Below are positions 6,204-16,898 of a DNA stretch of 64,000 bases, piece after piece. The notes under the pieces are model-generated. The model was given only the letters and a program-made list of their open reading frames with translations. It had not been told where the DNA came from and made no database searches. The stretch's first letter is position 1. Each line of letters begins with the position of its first letter. The position numbers were made by a program, and so were the translations under genes. Source of the DNA: an uncultured Eubacteriales bacterium (GTDB lineage: Bacteria; Bacillota; Clostridia; Oscillospirales; Acutalibacteraceae); assembly GCA_900314795.1 (NCBI GenBank), contig OMWP01000016.1, positions 30,817 through 94,816 on the forward strand, in the 5' to 3' direction.

Positions 6204-7478
6204 ATGAGAAAAATTCTTCCCGTTACCCTGCTGACCGGTTATCTCGGCGCGGGCAAAACGACATTATTGAATCATGTGCTCAACAACCAGGAGGGCTATA
6301 AGGTCGCCGTCATCGTCAACGATATCGGCGAGGTCAACATCGACGCTGAGCTGATCCAAAAGGGCGGCGTCGTCAATGAGAAGGACGAGAACCTTGTACC
6401 GCTCCAGAACGGCTGTATCTGCTGTACTCTCAAGACCGATCTGATCGAGCAGATCCTCGGCTTGGTAAAGCAGCAGAAGTTCGATTACATCCTGATCGAG
6501 GCTTCGGGCATCTGTGAGCCGATCCCGATCGCGCAGACCATCTCTATGCTCGACGGCTCCTACAACGATCCCCGACTGCCCAAGCTCTGCCGTCTGGACA
6601 ACGTCGTGTCCGTCGTTGACGCGGCTCGATTGAGCAGTGAATTCGGCTGCGGCGGCGCTCTCTTGAATGACGATATCGACGATGAGGATATCGAGAACCT
6701 GCTGATCCAGCAGATCGAGTTCTGCAACACCATCATCCTCAACAAGATCGACCTCGTCACTGAGGAAGAGCTGGTCAATATCAAAAAGGTCATCCGCGCG
6801 CTCCAGCCCGAGGCAAAGATCATTGAGACTACCCACGGTGAGGTGGCAATCAGCGAGATCCTCAATACCAACAACTTCGACTTCGACAAGGTCGCTTCCT
6901 CCGCCGCATGGGTACAGGAGCTGAATGCTGATGTTGACGAAGATGACCATGATGAAGATGGACACCATCACGATCATGATGAGCATGAGCACCATCATCA
7001 CGACCACGATGAACATCACGACCATGATGATCACGACCATGATCATCATGAAAAAAGCAGCCACGGCTGCCATCATCACCACCATCATCACGAGGGCGGT
7101 GAGGTAGAGGAGTACGGCATCGGCACCTTTGTGTACTATCGCCGTCAGCCGTTCACCAAGGATAAATTCGAGAAATTCCTCGCGTCCTTCCCGAAGAACG
7201 TCATCCGCGCCAAGGGTCTGTTCTGGATCAAGGAGGACAAGGATTGGGCGATCATGTTTGAGCAGTCGGGCAAGCAGATGGACTGCACCGACTACGGTCA
7301 GTGGCTCGCTGCCGCTCCCGCTCACATCCGTCGCAAGATGTTCCAGGAGGATCCCGAGTTGCAGAAGGATTGGGACGACAAGTACGGCGACCGCATGATC
7401 AAGCTGGTGTTCATCGGTCAGAACCTCGACAAAGAGGCGATCACGAAGGCGCTCGACGAGTGCTTGACAGAACTCTAA
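6204..7478 (+). CDS. CobW/P47K-family GTPase metallochaperone with His-rich loop
   Basis: A 424-residue G3E-family GTPase. Walker A is GYLGAGKTT (residues 12-20), the metal-binding CxCC motif is Cys71-Ile-Cys73-Cys74, and NKID specifies guanine near residue 180. Between the GTPase domain and the CobW C-terminal domain (from about 305) is an insertion of about 55 residues made almost only of His, Asp and Glu, ending in seven consecutive His. Family members deliver zinc or other metals to metalloproteins; the His/acid loop is likely a metal store or sensor. Zinc is the best guess; cobalt or nickel are alternatives. The 5' leader appears to contain a MITE-like hairpin. Confidence 0.93.
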   Translation: MRKILPVTLLTGYLGAGKTTLLNHVLNNQEGYKVAVIVNDIGEVNIDAELIQKGGVVNEKDENLVPLQNGCICCTLKTDLIEQILGLVKQQKFDYILIEASGICEPIPIAQTISMLDGSYNDPRLPKLCRLDNVVSVVDAARLSSEFGCGGALLNDDIDDEDIENLLIQQIEFCNTIILNKIDLVTEEELVNIKKVIRALQPEAKIIETTHGEVAISEILNTNNFDFDKVASSAAWVQELNADVDEDDHDEDGHHHDHDEHEHHHHDHDEHHDHDDHDHDHHEKSSHGCHHHHHHHEGGEVEEYGIGTFVYYRRQPFTKDKFEKFLASFPKNVIRAKGLFWIKEDKDWAIMFEQSGKQMDCTDYGQWLAAAPAHIRRKMFQEDPELQKDWDDKYGDRMIKLVFIGQNLDKEAITKALDECLTEL

Positions 7479-7598: not shown

Positions 7599-8408
7599 TT
7601 ATGATATGATTCCCAATTCTTCCAGTGCTTTTGCGATGCCGTCGTGGTCACAGTCGTCGGTGATACGGTCGGCGACTTCCTTTAATGCGTCCTCGGCGTT
7701 GCCCATCGCGATGCCCGTTCCCGCGGCTTTGATCATGAAAATATCGTTGAAGCTGTCGCCGAACGCTACCGCGTCGCGGATGTCGATCCCCGCGTCGTCA
7801 CAGATCTTACGCAGACCCTCGCCTTTGTTAGCCTGTTTGGGCATCACCTCAAGGAACCACGGAGCGGAAAGGTAGATATCGACCTCGTCGCCGAGGGCGC
7901 GGAGCAGCTGCTGTTCCAGCTCTTTGAGTTCCTTCGGATCGCCCGCGATCAGGAACTTATGGATGTCCCAGTCGATGAACGACGGCAGATCGTCCACCAC
8001 GTTCAGCGGCAGACCGATCACATCGCTCTCAATGTGGGTGTAGTCGTTGACCTTGTTGTCGGCATAGATCGTCGCGCCCTTGTGCACCATGGTGGTGACG
8101 TTCGTCGGACGGAGAATGTCATAAACAGGCGCGATATATTTGCTGTCAAGGTAACACTTGCCGATCAGCTCGTCGCGACTGTTCATGATCGCACCGCCGT
8201 TGAAGCCCATGTAATAGCCACCGTAGCGGAACACCTCGAGCTGCTCGGCAAAGGGGCGCACGCCGTAGGGGAGGCGTCCCGACGCGACCGCGACCTTCAC
8301 GCCGTTTTCCTGCGCCTGTAATAATGCCGACTTGGTGAGGGGGGAGATCTCCTTTTTTCGATTGAGTAAGGTGTCGTCGATATCGACCGCGATCAATTTG
8401 TATTTCAT
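7599..8408 (-). CDS. Cof-type HAD-IIB phosphatase
   Basis: A 269-residue cytoplasmic phosphatase of the Cof subfamily. HAD motif I is DIDDTLL near the N-terminus with the two aspartates, motif II is the serine in VASGRLP, the motif III lysine lies in KGEGLRKI, and motif IV is GDSFND near residue 217. The large central cap (about 85-190) is of the IIB type. Such enzymes dephosphorylate sugar phosphates, flavin or pyridoxal phosphates; the substrate is not predictable here. It stands alone between repeat-rich gaps. Confidence 0.92.
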   Translation of the reverse strand: MKYKLIAVDIDDTLLNRKKEISPLTKSALLQAQENGVKVAVASGRLPYGVRPFAEQLEVFRYGGYYMGFNGGAIMNSRDELIGKCYLDSKYIAPVYDILRPTNVTTMVHKGATIYADNKVNDYTHIESDVIGLPLNVVDDLPSFIDWDIHKFLIAGDPKELKELEQQLLRALGDEVDIYLSAPWFLEVMPKQANKGEGLRKICDDAGIDIRDAVAFGDSFNDIFMIKAAGTGIAMGNAEDALKEVADRITDDCDHDGIAKALEELGIIS

Positions 8409-8486
8409 ATGGTACCTCAGTGTTCAAAATGTTCAACCATACGTTACCACAAAATGAGGAAGATGGCAAGCGGAATTTGGAGAGAA

Positions 8487-8765
8487 AATTGTAGGGTACG
8501 GCGCCGACACGCGTGTCCGACGTACCGCTGTAGGGTGTTGGATAACGAACCGCGTTGTTTCCTGTCCAATGTTTTCGATAACAGAAACGTCCGTCATTCT
8601 GCGGATTGTCGATGACCATCCCTACGGCAAATGCGATTTGCTCCGCAATTGGATGGCTTCGTAATCAAAGGTGCGGTACGTCATAAATGCCGTACCCTAC
8701 GGAGGGATGGATCTGCTTCGCGGCGGGTGACATCTTATCAAGCGTTCGGGACGTCGAGGCGCCGT
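8487..8765. repeat. Intergenic repeat patch (GTAGGGTACGGC family)
   Basis: Two inverted copies of the module GTAGGGTACGGC...GACGTACCG occur at about 8492-8527 (plus) and 8671-8701 (minus), joined by other repetitive sequence. The same module recurs at 15.6, 16.0, 25.2, 25.3 and 53.7-53.8 kb. The gene-free stretch 8409-9017 otherwise contains an AT-rich promoter region from about 8790. Confidence 0.7.
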
Positions 8766-8906
8766 TCCCGACAAAATGTCTCCGATTAATCCTTTGTTTT
8801 GCTTTAACGCATTACCGCATCAGCATAAAATCTGTACAATTTTGATCGCCGTATATAGCACAGGATAAAAAATCTGTAGAAAATATGATGAATCCTTAAA
8901 AAGTGA

Positions 8907-8934
8907 TTGAATTTTTTCAAAATTGTATTATAAT
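8907..8934 (+). promoter_or_regulatory. Promoter of the Dlt-like operon
   Basis: TTGAAT (8907-8912), 16-bp spacer and TATAAT (8929-8934) in AT-rich sequence, about 84 bases before the first gene. Confidence 0.7.
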
Positions 8935-9017
8935 GTTAAATGTATTAATGTGGATAATTATGGATACCTGTAGATTGTTTACAGACGCCGATTATCTAAT
9001 GAAAGGATGTGCTGAAT

Positions 9018-10523
9018 ATGCAAACATCGGTTCTCGAACGCTTAGACGCGAGTGTTTCGCGCTATGCGGAAAAAGTGATGTTCAAAGATCCCGAGCGCAG
9101 CCTGACCTTCGGTCAGTTTGACGTGCTCACCAAGTCGATCGGTACCTACCTCGCGGGCATTACCAAGCCCGGTGATCCGGTCGCTGTGATGTCCGGCAGA
9201 CATGTATACACCCCGTCGTGCTTTTTGGGCGCTGTCAGAGCGGGCTGCTTCTATGCTCCGATGGACGGCGATATGCCGAAAGCGAGACTCAACCAGATCC
9301 TCTCCGTCATCAAGGCGCCGAATCTGTTGGTAGATCAGGCTCACCTCGAGACGGCAAAGGCTCTGGACTATGACGGCAACATCATCATCATGGAAGAGAT
9401 CATGGATACTGTTGTTGATGAGGCACTCCTCGCTGAGCGTGCCGCGACGCTGGTATGCACCTCTCCGTTGTATGTGATCTTCACCTCCGGCTCGACCGGC
9501 AAGCCCAAGGGCGTTATCACCTCGCACCTTTCGCTGATGACGTATATCGACAGCGTGTGCAAGGTGCTCGATATCAACGATACCGACATCATGGGCAACC
9601 AGAGCCCGCTTGATTATATCGCGGCTGTCCGCGACATTTACTTCCCCATCACCAAGGGCGCTTCCACCTTCATCATCCCGAAGAATGAGTTCGCTGTGCC
9701 GACCGAGCTGTTCGGTACGCTGAATCGTGAGAAGATCACCGCGCTGTGCTGGAGTGTCGCCGGCGTTGAGATCCCGGCAAAGCTGGGTGCTTTTGACGAG
9801 AGCAAGCCCGAATACCTCAAGAAGCTCTGCTTCTCCGGTTCGGTCATGCCCTGCAAGTACCTCAAGATCTGGCAGGAGCATCTGCCCGACGTCCTCTATG
9901 TCAACCAGTACGGCCCCACCGAGTCCACCGCTTCCTGCACCTATTATGTGGTCAAGGAAAAGGTCGACGACGATACCGTTCTGCCGATCGGTAAGCCGTA
10001 TGACAACTATAAGATCATGCTTCTCAATGACGATAACACCCCGACTCCCGACGGCGAGATCGGTCAGATCTGCGTCAGCGGCCCGATCCTCGCGCTGGGC
10101 TATTACGGCAACAGAGAAGTCACCGAGGAGACCTTCATCCAGAATCCGCTGAACCCGAACTACCGCGAGCTGATCTATAAGACCGGCGACCTCGGCAGAT
10201 GGGCTGAGGACGGCAACCTGATGTTCCACGGCCGTATGGATCGCCAGATCAAGCATCTGGGTCACCGCATCGAGCTCGGCGAGATCGAAGAGACCGCAAA
10301 GCTGGTTGAGGGCGTCAAGGATTGCTGTGCGCTGTATAACAAGCCCAAGGCGACCCTATATCTCTTCTACACCGGTGACGCGACCAGCAGGGATATTGTG
10401 CTCTATTTCAGAGCCAACATGCCCGCCTTCATGGTGCCGCGTAAGCTGGTCAACCTTGAGGAGATGCCCACCCTGCCTAACGGAAAGCTGGACATGCAGG
10501 CACTCAAGGCGATGTTCAAATAA
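9018..10523 (+). CDS. DltA-like amino-acid adenylation enzyme with altered substrate pocket
   Basis: A 501-residue ANL-superfamily ligase that would activate a carboxylic acid with ATP and load it on the carrier protein encoded next. Visible motifs: FTSGSTGKPKG near 155, YVNQYGPTEST near 297, YKTGDLGRW, and the hinge/C-terminal lysine in LPNGKLD. By eye alignment with Bacillus DltA, the Asp that binds the D-alanine amino group is replaced by Ile201 (QSPLDYIAAVRD) and the Cys that senses D-chirality by Ser273 (CFSGSVMP). This argues against plain D-alanine. The start at 9018 is chosen because AAAGGA is ten bases upstream; a GTG at 9009 is too close to it. First gene of the operon that also holds carrier, decarboxylase, MBOAT and SGNH genes. 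Confidence 0.88.
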   Translation: MQTSVLERLDASVSRYAEKVMFKDPERSLTFGQFDVLTKSIGTYLAGITKPGDPVAVMSGRHVYTPSCFLGAVRAGCFYAPMDGDMPKARLNQILSVIKAPNLLVDQAHLETAKALDYDGNIIIMEEIMDTVVDEALLAERAATLVCTSPLYVIFTSGSTGKPKGVITSHLSLMTYIDSVCKVLDINDTDIMGNQSPLDYIAAVRDIYFPITKGASTFIIPKNEFAVPTELFGTLNREKITALCWSVAGVEIPAKLGAFDESKPEYLKKLCFSGSVMPCKYLKIWQEHLPDVLYVNQYGPTESTASCTYYVVKEKVDDDTVLPIGKPYDNYKIMLLNDDNTPTPDGEIGQICVSGPILALGYYGNREVTEETFIQNPLNPNYRELIYKTGDLGRWAEDGNLMFHGRMDRQIKHLGHRIELGEIEETAKLVEGVKDCCALYNKPKATLYLFYTGDATSRDIVLYFRANMPAFMVPRKLVNLEEMPTLPNGKLDMQALKAMFK

Positions 10524-10525
10524 TT

Positions 10526-10684
10526 GCCTTCCCCTTGAGGGGAAGGTGTCGCCGCCGACTGAGGCGGTGACGGATGAGGTGGAAGCGTTTCCATCTCATG
10601 ACATTGATTGTTGTATCGGAGAGGTATCCACCTCATCCGACCAATTCGCAAGCGAATTGCCCACCTTCCCATCAAGGGGAAGGC
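10526..10684. mobile_element. MITE-like element inside the Dlt-like operon
   Basis: A 159-bp inverted-repeat element separates the adenylation and carrier genes. Both ends read inward as GCCTTCCCCTTGA(G/T)GGGAAGGTG, and both arms carry GGATGAGGTGGA. Elements of this CCTTCCCCTTGAGGGGAAGG type are familiar from clostridial genomes. No reading frame of its own. Confidence 0.8.
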
Positions 10685-10743
10685 TAAAATCGTATATTAC
10701 CACAAGGTGATAAGATATAATAATTCTAAAGGAGAAATTTGTT

Positions 10744-10971
10744 ATGGATCAATTAATGAAAATCTTACAGGAACTCAGACCCGACGTAGATTTTGAGAAC
10801 GAAACCGCTCTGATCACCAACGGTATCCTCGATTCCTTCGATATCGTAGCGCTCGTAGGCGAGCTCAACGATGAGTTTGACATCGAGATCAAGCCGAACA
10901 ACCTCGTTCCCGAGAACTTCAACTCCGCCAAGGCTATGATGGCGCTGATCGAGAAGCTGCAGGACGAATAA
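10744..10971 (+). CDS. DltC-like acyl carrier protein
   Basis: A 75-residue acidic carrier protein. The phosphopantetheine attachment site is Ser31 in GILDSFDIVAL; helices 2 and 3 follow (LVGELNDEFDIEI, AMMALIEKLQ). The size and DSF motif match DltC and stand-alone carriers. AAAGGAG precedes the ATG. It would accept the acyl group from the upstream adenylation enzyme and present it to the downstream decarboxylase and the membrane acyltransferase. Confidence 0.9.
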   Translation: MDQLMKILQELRPDVDFENETALITNGILDSFDIVALVGELNDEFDIEIKPNNLVPENFNSAKAMMALIEKLQDE

Positions 10972-10997
10972 TCTGTCGGTACCTGAATGACGAATCC

Positions 10998-11018
10998 GCC
11001 TCCCTGTTTCAGGGAGGC
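10998..11018 (+). other. Stable intercistronic hairpin
   Basis: GCCTCCCTG and CAGGGAGGC pair perfectly around TTT, with no T run. It lies between the carrier and decarboxylase genes and may act as an mRNA processing or attenuation site. Confidence 0.5.
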
Positions 11019-11052
11019 AGAGCGTTGCTATGAACAATGAAAAAGGAATGAT

Positions 11053-12264
11053 ATGATGAATATCAATAAGTTAAAGGAGCTCCTGCCCAAGGTCGGAACC
11101 CCTTCCTATATTTTTGATCTCGATGCATTCGAGCAGCGTGCCGCCTTAGTCAAGAAGTACTTCGGCGATACGATCGGACTGTGCTTTTCGATCAAAGCCA
11201 ATCCGTTTTTGCTGGGCAGGATGCCTGAGCAGTTCGATAAGATCGAGGTTTGCTCCCCCGGTGAGCTGACGGTTTGTGAGCGCACCGGTGTGGATATGAG
11301 CACCATCATCTTCTCGGGCGTCAACAAGGGCTATGCGGATGTGGAGCGTGCCGCTGACGATAACGTCGGTACCTTCACCGCCGAATCCCCCCTGCATCTC
11401 GAGCTGATCAACGACGCGGCGCTTCGCAGAGGCAAGGTATTCAATCTGCTGCTGCGCGTGACCGATATCAAGGGCGGCAGCCAGTTCGGTATGAACGAGG
11501 AATGCACCCTCGACATCATCCGCCGCCGCGAGGAATACAAAGGCGTCAAGATCGTCGGTCTGCACTACTTCACCGGTACGGCAAAGCGTAAAGCAAAGCC
11601 CATCGAGCGTGAGTGCGACTATCTGATGGATCTGACCGCTCGCATCAAGAACGATCTCGGCTTCACCGTTGAGCGTATCGAATACGGCACGGGTCTCGCG
11701 GTCGACTACTTCTCCGACAATGCCGACGCCGAGGAAGAGGAGCGCCTCGCTTCCATCTCTCCGAAGCTGCAGGAGCTGGCTCAGGTAGCTGAGCTGACCG
11801 TCGAGATGGGTCGCTTCTTTGCGGCTCCCTGCGGTTATTACCTGACCAAGGTCGTGGATACCAAAACCAATTTTGATATCAACTACGCGATCGTGGACGG
11901 CGGTATGAACCAGGTCAAGTACAACGGCCAGCTGCAGGGTATGCAGATCCCCGAGATCCTGCACCTTACCGACCGTGACAAGGCGGAGGACAAGAAGCAG
12001 TGGACACTGTGCGGCTCCATCTGCACCACCGCGGATATTCTGGCGCGCAACGCGGAATTTGACGATCTGCGGATCGGCGATATCCTCGTGTTCTGCCGCA
12101 CCGGCGCTTACTCCTGCATGGAGGGTATCTCCACCTTCCTCAGCCGCGAGATGCCGGTCATCGCCGAATACAGTGAGAAAGAGGGCCTCAGGATCCTCCG
12201 TGAAATGCTGTATTCCGATGAGTTCAATACACCGAATAGAGAACAGATAACAGAGAACAGATAA
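11053..12264 (+). CDS. PLP-dependent fold-III decarboxylase (LysA/BtrK-like) of the Dlt-like operon
   Basis: A 403-residue enzyme of the alanine racemase-fold decarboxylase family. PLP Lys48 lies in CFSIKANP; the barrel shows SPGELTVCERTG, GLHYFTGTAKRK in place of the usual HIGSQ motif, EYGTGLAV, and the second-domain active-site Cys in CGSICTTADILARN followed by GAYSC. Relatives decarboxylate diaminopimelate, ornithine or arginine. BtrK of butirosin synthesis decarboxylates glutamate while it is bound to a carrier protein, a close parallel since this gene sits directly after a carrier. I infer an acyl-carrier substrate, but a free amino acid is possible. The last eight codons run into a short tandem repeat array (from 12241), so the C-terminus (REQITENR) is repeat-derived. 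Confidence 0.87.
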   Translation: MMNINKLKELLPKVGTPSYIFDLDAFEQRAALVKKYFGDTIGLCFSIKANPFLLGRMPEQFDKIEVCSPGELTVCERTGVDMSTIIFSGVNKGYADVERAADDNVGTFTAESPLHLELINDAALRRGKVFNLLLRVTDIKGGSQFGMNEECTLDIIRRREEYKGVKIVGLHYFTGTAKRKAKPIERECDYLMDLTARIKNDLGFTVERIEYGTGLAVDYFSDNADAEEEERLASISPKLQELAQVAELTVEMGRFFAAPCGYYLTKVVDTKTNFDINYAIVDGGMNQVKYNGQLQGMQIPEILHLTDRDKAEDKKQWTLCGSICTTADILARNAEFDDLRIGDILVFCRTGAYSCMEGISTFLSREMPVIAEYSEKEGLRILREMLYSDEFNTPNREQITENR

Positions 12265-12393
12265 CAGTTAAAGGAAAACCTGATGGTTTTTGAGTTTTCA
12301 ATATTTCATGAAAACCTGTGAAGATGATTGATAATCGGGTGTGGGTGTTCCGCCATTCACTGTTATCTGTTATCTGTCAACTGCTATCTGATA
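12241..12393. repeat. Intergenic element with inverted short-tandem-repeat ends (copy 1)
   Basis: The left array (12241-12270) repeats GAACAGATAACAG, the right array (12359-12393) repeats its reverse complement (TGTTATCTGTTATCTG). The core contains GGGTGTGGGTGTTCCGCC followed by ATTCAC, shared with the elements at 21363 and 23830. Confidence 0.75.
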
Positions 12394-12408
12394 TAAAAAA
12401 GGTTCATT

Positions 12409-14040
12409 ATGACTTATACATCAATCAATTTTATTTTCTTTGTGTTGGCGACCGCGCTGGTCTACTTCGTCCTGCCGTGGAAGAAGTATCGCTGGACGGT
12501 GCTGCTCGCCGCGAGTGCGATCTTCTACTGCCTCGCGAGCTACAAGTATGCCGTATTCATCCTGTTTACGGCGCTGAGTACGATGCTCATCGGCTTGTGG
12601 CTGGACAACGTGAATACGAAGTCCAAGGCACTCCTGAAATCCAAAAAGGGTGAGTGGGATCGCGAACAAAAGAAAGCGTTCAAAAACAAACTGAAGGTCA
12701 AGAAGCGCTGGATCATGGCGCTCTGCCTGATCCTCAACTTCGGCATTCTGGCTTTCTTAAAGTATTACAACTTCTTTGCCGGCTCTCTGAACGACATCCT
12801 CGGCTCGATGCGCATCGACTTTTCGGCTCCGACCTTAAAGCTGTTCCTGCCGCTGGGTATCTCGTTCTACACCTTCCAGAGCATGGGCTATATCGTGGAC
12901 GTCTACCGCGAGAAGGTCAAACCGCAGACCAACCCCTTCAAGTTCCTGCTGTTCGTTTCCTTCTTCCCGCAGATCATCCAAGGTCCGATCAGCAACTACT
13001 CACAGCTCGGACATCAGCTCTTTGAGGGTCACGACTTTGATTTTACCCGCTTTAAGCACGGCGCACAGCTGATTTTGTGGGGCTTCTTCAAGAAGCTGGT
13101 CATCGCCGACAGAGCGGTCGTGGCGATCAATACCGTCACCGCGACCCCTCAGGGCTACAATAAGTATTCCGGCACGACGCTGACCTTCACCATCCTGCTG
13201 TACGCGTTCCAGCTTTACGCCGATTTCTCGGGCGGTATCGATATCTCCCGCGGTGTGGCACAGCTCTTCGGCATCGATCTGATCGATAACTTCAAGCGTC
13301 CGTACTTCTCGAAGAGTATCAACGAGTATTGGCGCAGATGGCATATCTCGCTCGGCGCGTGGATGAAGGACTATATCTTCAACCCGCTGGCGATCAGCTC
13401 GGCGTTCCTCAACGCGAGCAAGAAGATGCGCGGCACCAAGTTCGGCAAGACCAAAGCCGGCGCGCATATCGCCAAGGTGCTGCCGACAGCGTTTGCATCC
13501 CTGATCGTCTTCCTGGTCGTCGGTATCTGGCACGGCGCAAATTATAAATATGTCGCGTTCGGTGTCTGGAACGGCGGTATCATCATGCTGTCGATCCTGA
13601 TGCAGCCGCTGTTTGACGCTGTGACCGACAAACTGCACATCAACCGTGATAACTTCTTCTTCCGTCTGTTCCAGATGATCCGTACCTTTATCGTGGTGCT
13701 GATCGGCTATGTCTTTGACGTAGCGCCGTCCTTCCAACAGGGTATGATGACGATCGGCAGATTCTTTACCAATCAGGATCTGGAACGCGGCAGAAACGAG
13801 ATCCTTAAGCTCGGTATCAACTGGAAGGATTATGTTCTCTTAGGCGTATGCGTGGTCATCATCTGGGCGGTCAGCATGATCCAAGAGAAACATTCCGACA
13901 CCACCATCCGCGAGATGCTGGACAAAAAGCCCTTCATCCTGCGCTGGCTGGTATTCTTCTTCCTGATCATGGCGGTCATCATTTTCGGTATCTACGGCTC
14001 CGGCTACGCTGCTTCCGACTTCGTCTACATGCAGTTCTAG
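12409..14040 (+). CDS. MBOAT-family membrane O-acyltransferase (DltB/AlgI-like)
   Basis: A 543-residue polytopic protein with about 11 membrane helices. The family's conserved His is His375 in GIWHGANYKY; other signatures are FLPLGISFYTFQSMGYIVDVYR, PQIIQGPI and the YWRRWHISL stretch. MBOAT proteins take an acyl group from a carrier or coenzyme on the cytoplasmic side and pass it across the membrane. With the carrier protein upstream and the SGNH protein downstream, it completes a Dlt/Alg-type export unit for an acyl or aminoacyl group. The protein is longer than typical DltB (about 400) and nearer to AlgI in length. Confidence 0.92.
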   Translation: MTYTSINFIFFVLATALVYFVLPWKKYRWTVLLAASAIFYCLASYKYAVFILFTALSTMLIGLWLDNVNTKSKALLKSKKGEWDREQKKAFKNKLKVKKRWIMALCLILNFGILAFLKYYNFFAGSLNDILGSMRIDFSAPTLKLFLPLGISFYTFQSMGYIVDVYREKVKPQTNPFKFLLFVSFFPQIIQGPISNYSQLGHQLFEGHDFDFTRFKHGAQLILWGFFKKLVIADRAVVAINTVTATPQGYNKYSGTTLTFTILLYAFQLYADFSGGIDISRGVAQLFGIDLIDNFKRPYFSKSINEYWRRWHISLGAWMKDYIFNPLAISSAFLNASKKMRGTKFGKTKAGAHIAKVLPTAFASLIVFLVVGIWHGANYKYVAFGVWNGGIIMLSILMQPLFDAVTDKLHINRDNFFFRLFQMIRTFIVVLIGYVFDVAPSFQQGMMTIGRFFTNQDLERGRNEILKLGINWKDYVLLGVCVVIIWAVSMIQEKHSDTTIREMLDKKPFILRWLVFFFLIMAVIIFGIYGSGYAASDFVYMQF

Positions 14041-14133
14041 CGGACGTCCTTACCGATGCGCGGCGCTGTGCCGAGGGCGCGGCCTTGCGATCATTATCCG
14101 CCAAAGTTTGATGTATGGAATATGAGGCAACCT

Positions 14134-15351
14134 ATGAAAAAGAAACTTTATATCACACGCGGTCTGAAACTGCTTTCGTTCGGACTGGCGGTGGTTTTAT
14201 CAACCCTACTGCTTCAGACCTTTTTGCTGAAGCGTATCGATAACAATACGATGCGTATGGAGGCGTTCTATCTCGAGGAGAAGAATACCGTAGACGCGGT
14301 CTTGATCGGCGCGAGCGACGTCTACGCCGGCTATTCCGCTCCCTACGCATATGAGAAATACGGCTATACCAGCTATCCTTACGCGACCCAGAGCTCTCCG
14401 GCAAATATCGTTCTGCCGCAGATCAAAGAGGTGCTCAAGTACCAGAATCCCAAGATGGTCATCGTAGAGATCAACGCTTTTCTGTATAAGGATGACGAGA
14501 TCCCCAACGAGGCGAGCGCGCGTATGTTTGCGGATAATGTTCCCAGAGATGATATCTGGAGAGATTATCTCAAGGATGCGATCCCCGAGGATAAGCAGAT
14601 CGAGTATTATCTGCCGATCATCAAATACCACAGCTCGTGGAACGAGTATCCGTGGAAGATCAAGTATCTGAACGCGGAGATCGGGCTCAAGCAAAAGGGC
14701 TATTCTCTCTTCCGCGGCTACAAGACCGTTGCGAACGAGTTCCATTGTGACACAAAGGTCTATAACGACCAGCTTGCCGACAATGATCAAACGCTGCCTC
14801 TGGCGGTCAACGGTGAGCGGTATCTGAGACAGACGCTGGAATATCTCAAGGATAACAATATCACGAATGTTATGTTCATGCGATTCCCGCATATCGTCAA
14901 TGATTCCGCGTATAGCCGCTTCAAGCGCTGTAACGAGGCGGGGAAGATCATTGAGAGCTATGGCTATGACTTTGTCAACCTGGAGCGTTACAGTTCGCAG
15001 GAGGGCTTTGATCCCAACAAGGATTACTACAACTGGGATCATCTGAATGTTTACGGCTCGGAGAAGGTCACCGACTATGTCGCCAACATGCTGCAGACAA
15101 AATACGGTATCACCAAGACGGAGCTGACAGATAAGCAGAAGGCTGAGTGGAATGATTCGGTCAATTATTATCACATGATCTACAACTACAGTCAGGAGAT
15201 GATCCGTCGCCGTCTGGAACTGGGCAAGACCGGTAACGGCGGTACGACCGTATCCGAGGACGAAAAGAGTATCAATACCATCAAACAGTATGCACGCAAC
15301 CATCCCGACGCGGGCAAATACGACGTCATACTCGATGATGAAGAATCATAA
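14134..15351 (+). CDS. Membrane-anchored SGNH/DltD-like acyl-transfer protein
   Basis: A 405-residue protein with an N-terminal signal anchor (about 8-30) and an extracellular domain. Start at 14134 follows GAGG with six-base spacing; an upstream in-frame ATG lacks a ribosome site. The SGNH nucleophile is likely Ser61 in GASDVYAGY and the late catalytic pair is in NWDHLNVYG (Asp302, His303). This topology and gene order match DltD and the AlgJ/AlgX proteins, which complete transfer of the acyl group to a polymer outside the membrane. The identity to true DltD looks low. It ends the operon, followed by a strong terminator. Confidence 0.82.
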   Translation: MKKKLYITRGLKLLSFGLAVVLSTLLLQTFLLKRIDNNTMRMEAFYLEEKNTVDAVLIGASDVYAGYSAPYAYEKYGYTSYPYATQSSPANIVLPQIKEVLKYQNPKMVIVEINAFLYKDDEIPNEASARMFADNVPRDDIWRDYLKDAIPEDKQIEYYLPIIKYHSSWNEYPWKIKYLNAEIGLKQKGYSLFRGYKTVANEFHCDTKVYNDQLADNDQTLPLAVNGERYLRQTLEYLKDNNITNVMFMRFPHIVNDSAYSRFKRCNEAGKIIESYGYDFVNLERYSSQEGFDPNKDYYNWDHLNVYGSEKVTDYVANMLQTKYGITKTELTDKQKAEWNDSVNYYHMIYNYSQEMIRRRLELGKTGNGGTTVSEDEKSINTIKQYARNHPDAGKYDVILDDEES

Positions 15352-15370
15352 GAATATCATTTGTGAGAAG

Positions 15371-15397
15371 GCTCCCGCAGCAATGCGGGGGCTTTTT
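15371..15397 (+). terminator. Terminator of the Dlt-like operon
   Basis: GCTCCCGCA and TGCGGGGGC pair around GCAA, followed by six T. Confidence 0.85.
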
Positions 15398-15584
15398 TAG
15401 TTAGGAGTGAGGAGTTAGGAGTGAGGAGTTACCGAACGAAGGAGCGTCTATCGTAGGGGAGGGGTGCTCCCCGTTGGGGAGACGTCACGAAGTGACAGTA
15501 GGGGAGGCGTCTCCGCCGAGGAATGCTCCTCCCGTCACACTTCCGATATATCCCATCCAAATGCGATGCAAATGAAATACTTCC

Positions 15585-15752
15585 GTAGGGTACGGCATTT
15601 ATGACGTACCGCAACCTTTCCGCTCCATCCCGTTTGCACGCGAAGCAGATCTCTGCTTCCGTAGGGTACGGCGCTTGCGACGTACCGAACCTTTCCGCTC
15701 CATCCTGTTTGCACGCGAAGCAGATCAATTCCTCCGTAGGGTACGGCGATTT
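15585..15752. repeat. Direct tandem repeat, period about 75 bp
   Basis: GTAGGGTACGGC starts at 15585, 15661 and 15736. The first two units agree closely through AACCTTTCCGCTCCATCC and CACGCGAAGCAGATC; the third is partial. Confidence 0.8.
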
Positions 15753-15822
15753 TAGTTAGGAGTTAGGAGTTAGGAGTGAGGAGTTACCATATGATGCAAC
15801 GTCTATCGTAGGGGAGGGGGCT

Positions 15823-16264
15823 TGCTCCTCCCGAAACGTCTGTCAAGATGACGTTATAATGCGGAGCAGATCTCTGCTTCCGTAGGGATGTTCCTCAGCC
15901 GGAGACGGCACCCCTCTGTCGCTATGCGACACCTCCCCTTAGGGGAGATCACATTGGTCATCCGCAGAATGCCTCGCGGTTCCGTTATCGAAAACGTGAG
16001 ATAGAAAACACACGGTTCAGCCACGCGGTACGTCGACAAGCGCCGTACCCTACAAAACGCACATCCCCTCAACCGACGTGCTTCATGATCCACCCCCCTG
16101 CCGCGGGAGCAGCACAGTGGCGCTTAGCCAATCGCGGATGAATCCGCTCTTGGAGCGCTGTTGCATGGGAGTTGTGAACCAAATCATAGATTTGCTCCTC
16201 CCGAAACGTCTGTCAAGATGACATTATAACGCGGAGCAGATCAATTCTTCCGTAGGGATGTTCC
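15823..16264. repeat. Duplicated 72-bp block flanking unrelated sequence
   Basis: The blocks 15823-15894 and 16193-16264 share TGCTCCTCCCGAAACGTC, TGTCAAGATGAC, GCGGAGCAGATC and CCGTAGGGATGTTCC with few differences. The 298 bp between them include LTR-free repeat fragments only. Confidence 0.75.
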
Positions 16265-16377
16265 ATATAGGCGCAATGAACCGCCTGACCCACCACATCT
16301 TGATACCCATCAAAAACATATACAAAGATATTGGTGAAAAAGTTGTAAAATTTATGATAAAAATGTTACAGATTCCC

Positions 16378-16406
16378 TTGATTTTATCTGTATCATGGTA
16401 TATAAT
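16378..16406 (+). promoter_or_regulatory. Promoter of the division/cell-wall cluster
   Basis: TTGATT (16378-16383), 17-bp spacer and TATAAT (16401-16406). Confidence 0.75.
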
Positions 16407-16410
16407 AGGT

Positions 16411-16441
16411 TCATTGGTGGCGTTTAGTGTCATTTTGTGGC
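16411..16441 (+). promoter_or_regulatory. Probable MraZ operator (10-bp-spaced GTG boxes)
   Basis: GTGG at 16417, GTGT at 16427 and GTGG at 16437 sit exactly 10 bp apart, just after the -10 box and before mraZ. MraZ proteins are known to autorepress by binding short direct repeats at about 10-bp spacing (TGGG or AAAGTG types), so the position and period fit. Confidence 0.65.
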
Positions 16442-16478
16442 ATAAAATGTCTGATAAACAACAAAAGGAGGCGGCAGA

Positions 16479-16898
16479 ATGTTTTTAGGTACCAGCGATC
16501 ATCACCTTGACAGCAAGGGCAGAGTCATTCTGCCGACCGATTTCAGAGAACAGCTCGGCGAAAGCTTTTATATCACGATGGGCTTTAATCGTTGCGCTCA
16601 GGTGATGAGCGTCGAGGAGTTTGATCGACTGCGTGAGCAGATTCGTCAGCTGCCTGCTGATAAGGCACTTTCGCTCCAATATCTGCTGATCTCTCCCGCC
16701 AAGCTCGTCAGTCCCAACTCACAAGGCAGGATCATCATTCCGCAAAAGCTCCGTGAGGATGCCGGTCTCAGCGACGACGTCACCGTAGTCGGTATGGACT
16801 CGCGCATCGAGATCTGGGATAAGGCGACCTTCGATGACTTTATGGAACAGCAAAAACAGGCTTCTGTGAAAGAAGCACTCGAGCTGCTGCGTCTTTAA
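16479..16898 (+). CDS. mraZ: MraZ transcriptional regulator
   Basis: A 139-residue DNA-binding protein made of two SpoVT/AbrB-like domains, each with a DxKGR-like signature: DSKGRVILP near residue 12 and NSQGRIIIP near residue 85. MraZ forms rings that bind the direct repeats ahead of its own gene and controls the division cluster. AAAGGAGG lies seven bases before the ATG. It is the first gene of the cluster, downstream of a clear promoter and GTG-box operator. Confidence 0.96.
   Translation: MFLGTSDHHLDSKGRVILPTDFREQLGESFYITMGFNRCAQVMSVEEFDRLREQIRQLPADKALSLQYLLISPAKLVSPNSQGRIIIPQKLREDAGLSDDVTVVGMDSRIEIWDKATFDDFMEQQKQASVKEALELLRL

Follow-up and report, generated by a model that had tools for sequence, protein, structure and literature searches.

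A Dlt-like aminoacylation operon probably joined to an on-carrier decarboxylase in Clostridia

D-Alanylation is the standard means by which Gram-positive bacteria tune the charge of their envelope and resist cationic peptides. The operon described here lies in a 64,000-nucleotide stretch of DNA (hereafter the window) from the genome of an uncultured Eubacteriales bacterium (2.5 Mb, 67 contigs; contig OMWP01000016.1, positions 30,817 to 94,816) and is probably a Dlt-like aminoacylation system joined to an on-carrier decarboxylase. Like the Dlt systems, it unites in one operon a stand-alone adenylation enzyme (A), a carrier protein (C), an MBOAT (B) and a distant SGNH/DltD-like protein (D). It differs in the addition of a pyridoxal phosphate (PLP)-dependent decarboxylase (K), in the pocket of A when set against the residues we take to be those of DltA, and in the fusion of the shuttle Tyr to the MBOAT itself, with no DltX-like frame found in the operon. 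According to PMC12148441, Dlt systems keep the FxYxxF motif on the separate protein DltX, whereas in carrier-less MBOATs such as PatA, which are acyl-CoA users, the motif is fused. The PatA/PatB pair resembles the export half of the operon in that its MBOAT bears a C-terminal FXYXXF on extra helices and is partnered with an SGNH protein (PMC12148441), but PatA takes acetyl-CoA and employs no carrier, whereas this operon encodes both a carrier and an adenylation enzyme. Since the system is carrier-fed in the manner of Dlt and has its shuttle motif on B in the manner of PatA, it mixes the two plans.

Close parallels are also known from natural-product biosynthesis. VinN loads 3-methylaspartate rather than its decarboxylated product, which VinO then forms on the carrier VinL, and FlvN takes Asp for the beta-alanine starter of fluvirucin (PMC11284099). 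Compared by description and not by sequence, these systems resemble the operon in combining an adenylation enzyme and a stand-alone carrier with a PLP decarboxylase whose substrate is, or in the operon probably is, an acidic amino acid bound to the carrier; they feed polyketide synthases, mainly in actinomycetes, whereas the three proteins of the operon are coupled to an MBOAT/SGNH pair. BtrK, the glutamyl-carrier decarboxylase of butirosin biosynthesis, is the best Protein Data Bank (PDB) match of K (E 5e-30) and has in common with it a CT motif and, where LysA has its Arg-Tyr loop, a loop that is longer, although the similarity to K reaches only 108 bits and the partner proteins are unlike. 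A ligase and a PLP decarboxylase are also combined in the exosortase A-associated proteins ligase_PEP_1 (TIGR03098) and dCO2ase_PEP1 (TIGR03099), but A and K, at 164 and 173 bits, fall far under the cut-offs of 592 and 478 bits for these models. Among the literature matches listed, which cover neither subscription papers nor preprints, no paper, to judge by title and opening lines of the abstract, describes the gene set, and to our knowledge this would be the first known on-carrier editing of an amino acid in the acylation of an envelope polymer.

Gene set, order and distribution

Five open frames in the order A-C-K-B-D were confirmed on the plus strand between 9018 and 15351, as a preliminary description of this DNA had read them. 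Four have Pfam matches: A to AMP-binding (E 6.6e-56), C to PP-binding (E 1.8e-4), K to the Orn/DAP/Arg decarboxylases (DAP, diaminopimelate; E 5e-21 and 5e-16) and B to MBOAT (E 6.7e-18). The same description took four of the five proteins to follow the Dlt logic, and this logic, with an added decarboxylase, is indeed present; the models for DltA (253 bits against a curated cut-off of 476), DltC (34.6 against 68) and DltB (139 against 375) match only below their cut-offs, however, so that the proteins are Dlt-like and not Dlt.

A search with a profile of K against one genome per species gave 252 related stretches, and gene orders in the best 80 loci were called by a profile-based reading of the frames. 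The order A-C-K-B-D is found in 59 of these 80. The remaining 21 read as ACKB (11), ACK (6), CKBD (2), DACKB (1) and K alone (1). Read manually, 12 of the 21 are interrupted by a contig end, three have D upstream (L075, L079 and L086), one is without A (L078), one retains K alone (L106), and four have no B or D within the available flank (L102, L110, L111 and L112). The genes that follow A-C-K in these last four encode a low-molecular-weight phosphatase (L102), a transglutaminase-like protein (L111) and, by eye, a sulfotransferase-like (L110) and an MFS-like protein (L112).

In more distant relatives the set is kept intact and its order reshuffled: AKCBD occurs in 18 loci, AKBDCBD in three (L155, L160 and L163, each with two MBOAT/SGNH pairs and one carrier), KCABD in two and BDAKC in one, and a genome related at the level of phylum only (G746) also has AKCBD. 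Among 23 genus mates of the host, 11 have both K and a close A (at least 57% identity) and 12 have neither, one of the latter (G018) holding a distant A of 37% identity. At E <=1e-45, K is detected in 14 of 391 genomes of the class and 4 of 398 of the phylum, the host genome being counted in both and two others being common to the two sets. The system is widespread but patchy, and the joint occurrence of the five genes is not by chance. K-less A-C-B-D operons occur in the same family too, and the lineages with the full operon include many gut bacteria related to Ruminococcus, Ruminococcus bromii (L084) among them.

Among the genomes of the family, 53 besides that of the host have a match to A; regions were taken from 50, leaving aside G211, G228, G299 and a second match in G265. 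For the alignments of carrier, MBOAT and SGNH protein and for the pocket, the counts lie outside the window itself and outside the short excerpts L001-L032 and L113-L134, and comprise A frames of at least 400 bits, B frames longer than 480 aa and D frames longer than 280 aa; G111 and G291 each contribute more than one locus. Within this set Ser31 of the carrier, correctly named in the preliminary description as the loading site, is kept in 137/137 aligned proteins (L096 and L148 being one place entered twice).

Decarboxylase, adenylation pocket and export proteins

Among solved structures K is closest to BtrK, represented by two entries (E 5e-30 and 6e-30), and DAP decarboxylases come next. 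We aligned 35 hand-chosen K proteins with BtrK, with two DAP decarboxylases of known structure and with 18 LysA-type proteins encoded in the same genomes or in related ones. All 35 keep the fold-III PLP residues Lys47, Glu250, Arg253, Cys323, Asp327 and Tyr352. The residue after the catalytic Cys323 is Thr in 30 and Ser in five (Thr324 in the window), as it is Thr in BtrK, whereas the CE motif is present in all 18 LysA-type controls, that of the host genome included, and in both solved DAP decarboxylases. Also absent from the 35 K proteins is the Arg...Tyr loop of LysA, which is replaced by a longer loop, as in BtrK; we take this Arg...Tyr loop to hold the far end of DAP. Judged by its substrate residues, K is a decarboxylase of the BtrK type and not the LysA type, in agreement with the parallel to BtrK drawn at the outset, and it has the trait of carrier-bound decarboxylases that a partner carrier and a loading enzyme adjoin it.

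The preliminary description had allowed that K might be the sole lysA of the genome, a candidate role now ruled out by a second LysA-like gene. This gene, on contig C58, has the LysA residues and scores 262.9 bits against 184.8 for K, both under the cut-off of 297.9 bits for the LysA model TIGR01048 (a separate run gives K 185.8 bits, E 9e-55), and its presence leaves K free for another task. Because of this gene, of CT in place of CE and of the missing Arg-Tyr loop, K is probably not the LysA of the cell, and a role as DAP decarboxylase was rejected on the same residues (CT/CS for CE, no Arg-Tyr loop).

The pocket of A is altered in the very operons that hold K. In the window protein (504-aa numbering) it comprises Asp202, Ile204, Arg208, Ser276, Gln300 and Lys493. 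We take Ile204 to stand at the place of the usual Asp235, and Arg208 at that of residue 239, in the numbering of GrsA; a HMMER alignment likewise places the A4-motif Asp of LgrA on Ile204. Two types of pocket can be told apart: type I, in operons of order A-C-K, has D202, I204, A205, R208, mostly C247, S276 and Q300, and type II, in A-K-C and other orders, has D202, D204, V205, K208, I, V or T at 247, S276 and L or V at 300. The combination of Asp202 with Arg or Lys at 208 is found in 107/107 readable A proteins of K operons (106 distinct places, because L096 and L148 are one place counted twice) as against 2/28 K-less ones, five of these 28 being loci other than A-C-B-D operons (L174, L186, L188, L192 and L193).

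In the two K-less exceptions, L167 and L171, the slot of K between A and C is taken by a GNAT-like frame. These frames, of about 280 aa (L167:6985-7821, minus strand; L171:1525-2364, plus strand), belong to operons with a type II pocket; that of L167 matches Pfam Acetyltransf_1 (E 5e-12), and that of L171 was assigned by eye from its similar translation. In these two operons the loaded amino acid is perhaps acetylated instead of decarboxylated. Yet another pocket is seen in the K-less A-C-B-D operons L170, L173, L178, L183, L187, L189 and others, with Ser235, Met236, Ala301 and Asp330 (GrsA numbering), an unusual combination that differs from both K-linked types and presumably also from DltA. 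The host genome yields no second match to A at E 1e-60; a general adenylation model gives 15 matches there, some in long frames resembling nonribosomal peptide synthetases (C27 and C33) and others in frames of 421-639 aa (C27, C53 and C58).

On the export side, the catalytic-type His375 of B is kept in 121/121 aligned MBOATs and the C-terminal Tyr540 in 119/121. The window protein ends in the acyl-shuttle motif FVYMQF at its very C-terminus and has two extra hydrophobic stretches beyond the region matched by the DltB model. Of the 121, 85 have the full FxYxxF, and among the remaining 36 the usual ending is xIYAxF, xMYAxF or xIYGxF. A search of the interval 8400-16500 found no sense-strand DltX-like frame with FxYxxF; the motif occurs in one of its 145 short frames, an antisense frame of 30 aa with no obvious transmembrane segment by eye.

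Neither Pfam nor NCBIfam has a model that matches D at E 0.001, the profile of D gives only a chance match in the PDB (E 0.75), and 38 members of its family show weak, scattered matches to Pfam and NCBIfam models; one relative (L183) passes the DltD cut-off. The family reaches DltD only through such relatives, and D is a likely SGNH protein. Its candidate Ser-Asp-His residues, S61, D297 and H303 (S87, D323 and H329 in the 431-aa open reading frame, ORF), are kept in 113, 107 and 115 of 117 aligned proteins, respectively. The membrane step is also less Dlt-like than the preliminary description supposed, the shuttle motif being on B. Elsewhere in the genome, on contig C28 (L217:4878-7642), a second MBOAT ending in FLYFRF precedes a 376-aa protein in which a hydrophobic N-terminal segment can be seen by eye, and the two may be an O-acetylation pair.

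Proposed pathway and alternatives

With modest confidence, on the favourable side of even, we propose that the operon assembles an omega-amino acyl group on the carrier for export to a polymer of the envelope. A would adenylate the side-chain carboxyl of an acidic amino acid, L-Asp or L-Glu being the likeliest, and load this acid on the phosphopantetheine of Ser31 of C; K, as a BtrK/VinO-like enzyme, would strip the free alpha-carboxyl from the carrier-bound acid to give a beta-alanyl or 4-aminobutyryl thioester; B would carry the acyl group across the membrane onto the Tyr of its own C-terminal FVYMQF; and D would pass the group on in ester linkage to a polymer of the cell envelope, which would thereby gain positive charge as it does in D-alanylation. 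By analogy with VinN, the pocket of A may accommodate an acid with a second carboxylate. The interpretation put forward in the preliminary description is in this way partly supported, its outline agreeing with what the sequences show of the gene set and its conservation, of catalytic residues and of the distinct pocket that goes with K; the substrate, its activation at the side chain, loading before decarboxylation, the product and the polymer we infer.

Several observations weigh against this proposal. A basic residue at 208 is unspecific when taken alone, Lys208 being present in 7/28 K-less A proteins. The K label needs only two changes on a tree of A made by a quick method, so that pocket and K may go back to a single origin, in which case their agreement would not represent many independent events; the pattern may reflect one gain and one replacement. 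Type I A proteins have lost the usual amino-binding Asp (Ile204), type II proteins retain it, and the two types may therefore not use the same acid; in the decarboxylase, His170 of the window K is Gln or Glu in 19/22 type II proteins. D is tied to SGNH/DltD by distant relatives only, and the identity of the amino acid is itself a prediction. A-C-K stands without adjoining B or D in L102 and L110-L112, and in one genome (G021) A-C-K (L215) and a K-less A-C-B-D operon lie on different contigs.

The alternative that survives best, although unlikely, is that K first decarboxylates a free amino acid, Glu to 4-aminobutyrate (GABA) or Asp to beta-alanine, and that A then activates the product. It calls for the same gene set and leads to the same end product, and for incednine PMC11284099 has IdnL3 turning beta-glutamate into free 3-aminobutyrate. 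The invariant basic residue beside Asp (107/107) would be unexpected, however, if the substrate of A had no second carboxylate, and the substrate residues of K resemble those of BtrK, for which the PDB title mentions a substrate bound to a carrier.

Less probable again is that meso-DAP or another long diamino acid is loaded, with K as a carrier-bound LysA and lysyl groups exported. Membership of K in the LysA fold family (TIGR01048, E 9e-55) agrees with this, an Asp and a basic residue in the pocket could hold distal amino and carboxyl groups, and lysyl esters would also add charge; but in 35/35 K proteins the LysA Glu is replaced (CT/CS for CE) and the Arg-Tyr loop is missing from the alignment, and the usual alpha-amino-binding Asp is missing from type I A. 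About equally improbable is a secreted small molecule or lipid as the product of A-C-K-B-D in place of a decorated polymer. Carrier-bound decarboxylation is at home in antibiotic pathways and some A-C-K loci are without adjoining B and D, yet an MBOAT with its His and a fused shuttle motif, usually followed by a D with Ser/Asp/His, has the layout of a polymer acylation pair, and the flanks of ten loci, inspected by eye over the first 60 residues of each frame, contain no recurring biosynthetic genes.

Least probable of all is an ordinary D-alanylation operon in which K is a bystander or supplies another metabolite, a reading that the overall Dlt layout, the matches to the DltA, DltC and DltB models and the DltA structures among the PDB matches of A might suggest, but which we dismiss on the model scores, far under their cut-offs, on Ile204 and Ser276 where DltA presumably has Asp and Cys (235 and 301 in GrsA numbering), and on the lack of a sense-strand DltX-like FxYxxF frame in 8400-16500, K and a close A being moreover jointly present or absent in 23/23 genus mates.

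As to the polymer that would receive the omega-amino acyl group, teichoic acid is uncertain: the genome has no sulfatase-fold (LtaS-kind) protein at E 0.001, and its matches to the CDP-glycerol transferase family are two, one of them strong and the other borderline. If the proposal is true, a gut lineage that includes Ruminococcus bromii, which appears to edit an amino acid on its carrier before export, would present a new variant of wall decoration with a small amine-bearing acid other than D-alanine, the logic of beta-amino acid natural products and that of wall decoration would be joined, and envelope chemistry would become predictable from operon type. More tentatively, and with slightly less than even confidence, the Clostridia may possess a modular chassis for wall aminoacylation, in which a self-shuttling, carrier-fed MBOAT and an SGNH protein are combined with swappable adenylation and on-carrier tailoring enzymes (K in many loci, GNAT in two), and omega-amino acids such as beta-alanine or GABA replace D-alanine.

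Features and surroundings of the operon

The coordinates of the operon and its signals are collected in Table 1. From start context, and because many orthologue matches begin near the residues concerned, ATG 9018 is likely a better start for A (501 aa) than GTG 9009 (504 aa), and ATG 14134 a better one for D (405 aa) than the start of the 431-aa ORF.

Table 1. Features of the A-C-K-B-D operon, by position in the window
Feature	Position	Strand	Basis
Promoter-like site TTGAAT-16-TATAAT, upstream of A	8907..8934	+	Consensus scan, 10/12 positions; such matches are no evidence of function
A, stand-alone amino-acid adenylation enzyme, 501 aa	9018..10523	+	ORF; Pfam, NCBIfam and PDB matches; pocket residues
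Inverted-repeat element with ends CCTTCCCC...GGGGAAGG, in the A-C spacer inside the operon	10527..10683		Repeat analysis
C, carrier protein, 75 aa, phosphopantetheine Ser31 (LDSF)	10744..10971	+	ORF; Pfam, NCBIfam; alignment
K, fold-III PLP decarboxylase, 402 aa from ATG 11056	11053..12264	+	Pfam, NCBIfam and PDB matches; residue alignment
B, MBOAT, 543 aa, catalytic-type His375, C-terminal FVYMQF	12409..14040	+	Pfam, NCBIfam; alignment
D, membrane-anchored SGNH/DltD-like protein, 405 aa	14134..15351	+	Alignment; distant relatives
Terminator-like hairpin, then T6	15371..15398	+	Direct reading of the sequence; absent from the list of the signal scan

The inverted-repeat element between A and C is probably not a component of the pathway. 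Repeat clusters at 8556-8722 and 15390-16264 flank the operon and have sequence in common in inverted orientation, and CCGTAGGGTACGGC occurs in five copies in the window against 0.02 expected. Upstream, the operon is neighboured by a HAD phosphatase-like gene on the minus strand (7599-8408) and downstream by an mraZ-rsmH cell-division cluster, read from the translations. In three of the ten loci whose flanks were inspected (L137, L140 and L141), a response regulator and a histidine kinase are encoded just upstream of A, a position that would suit a response to envelope stress. Farther upstream in the window (6204-7478, plus strand) lies a gene for a CobW-family GTPase with a very long His/Asp-rich stretch, which probably binds metal.

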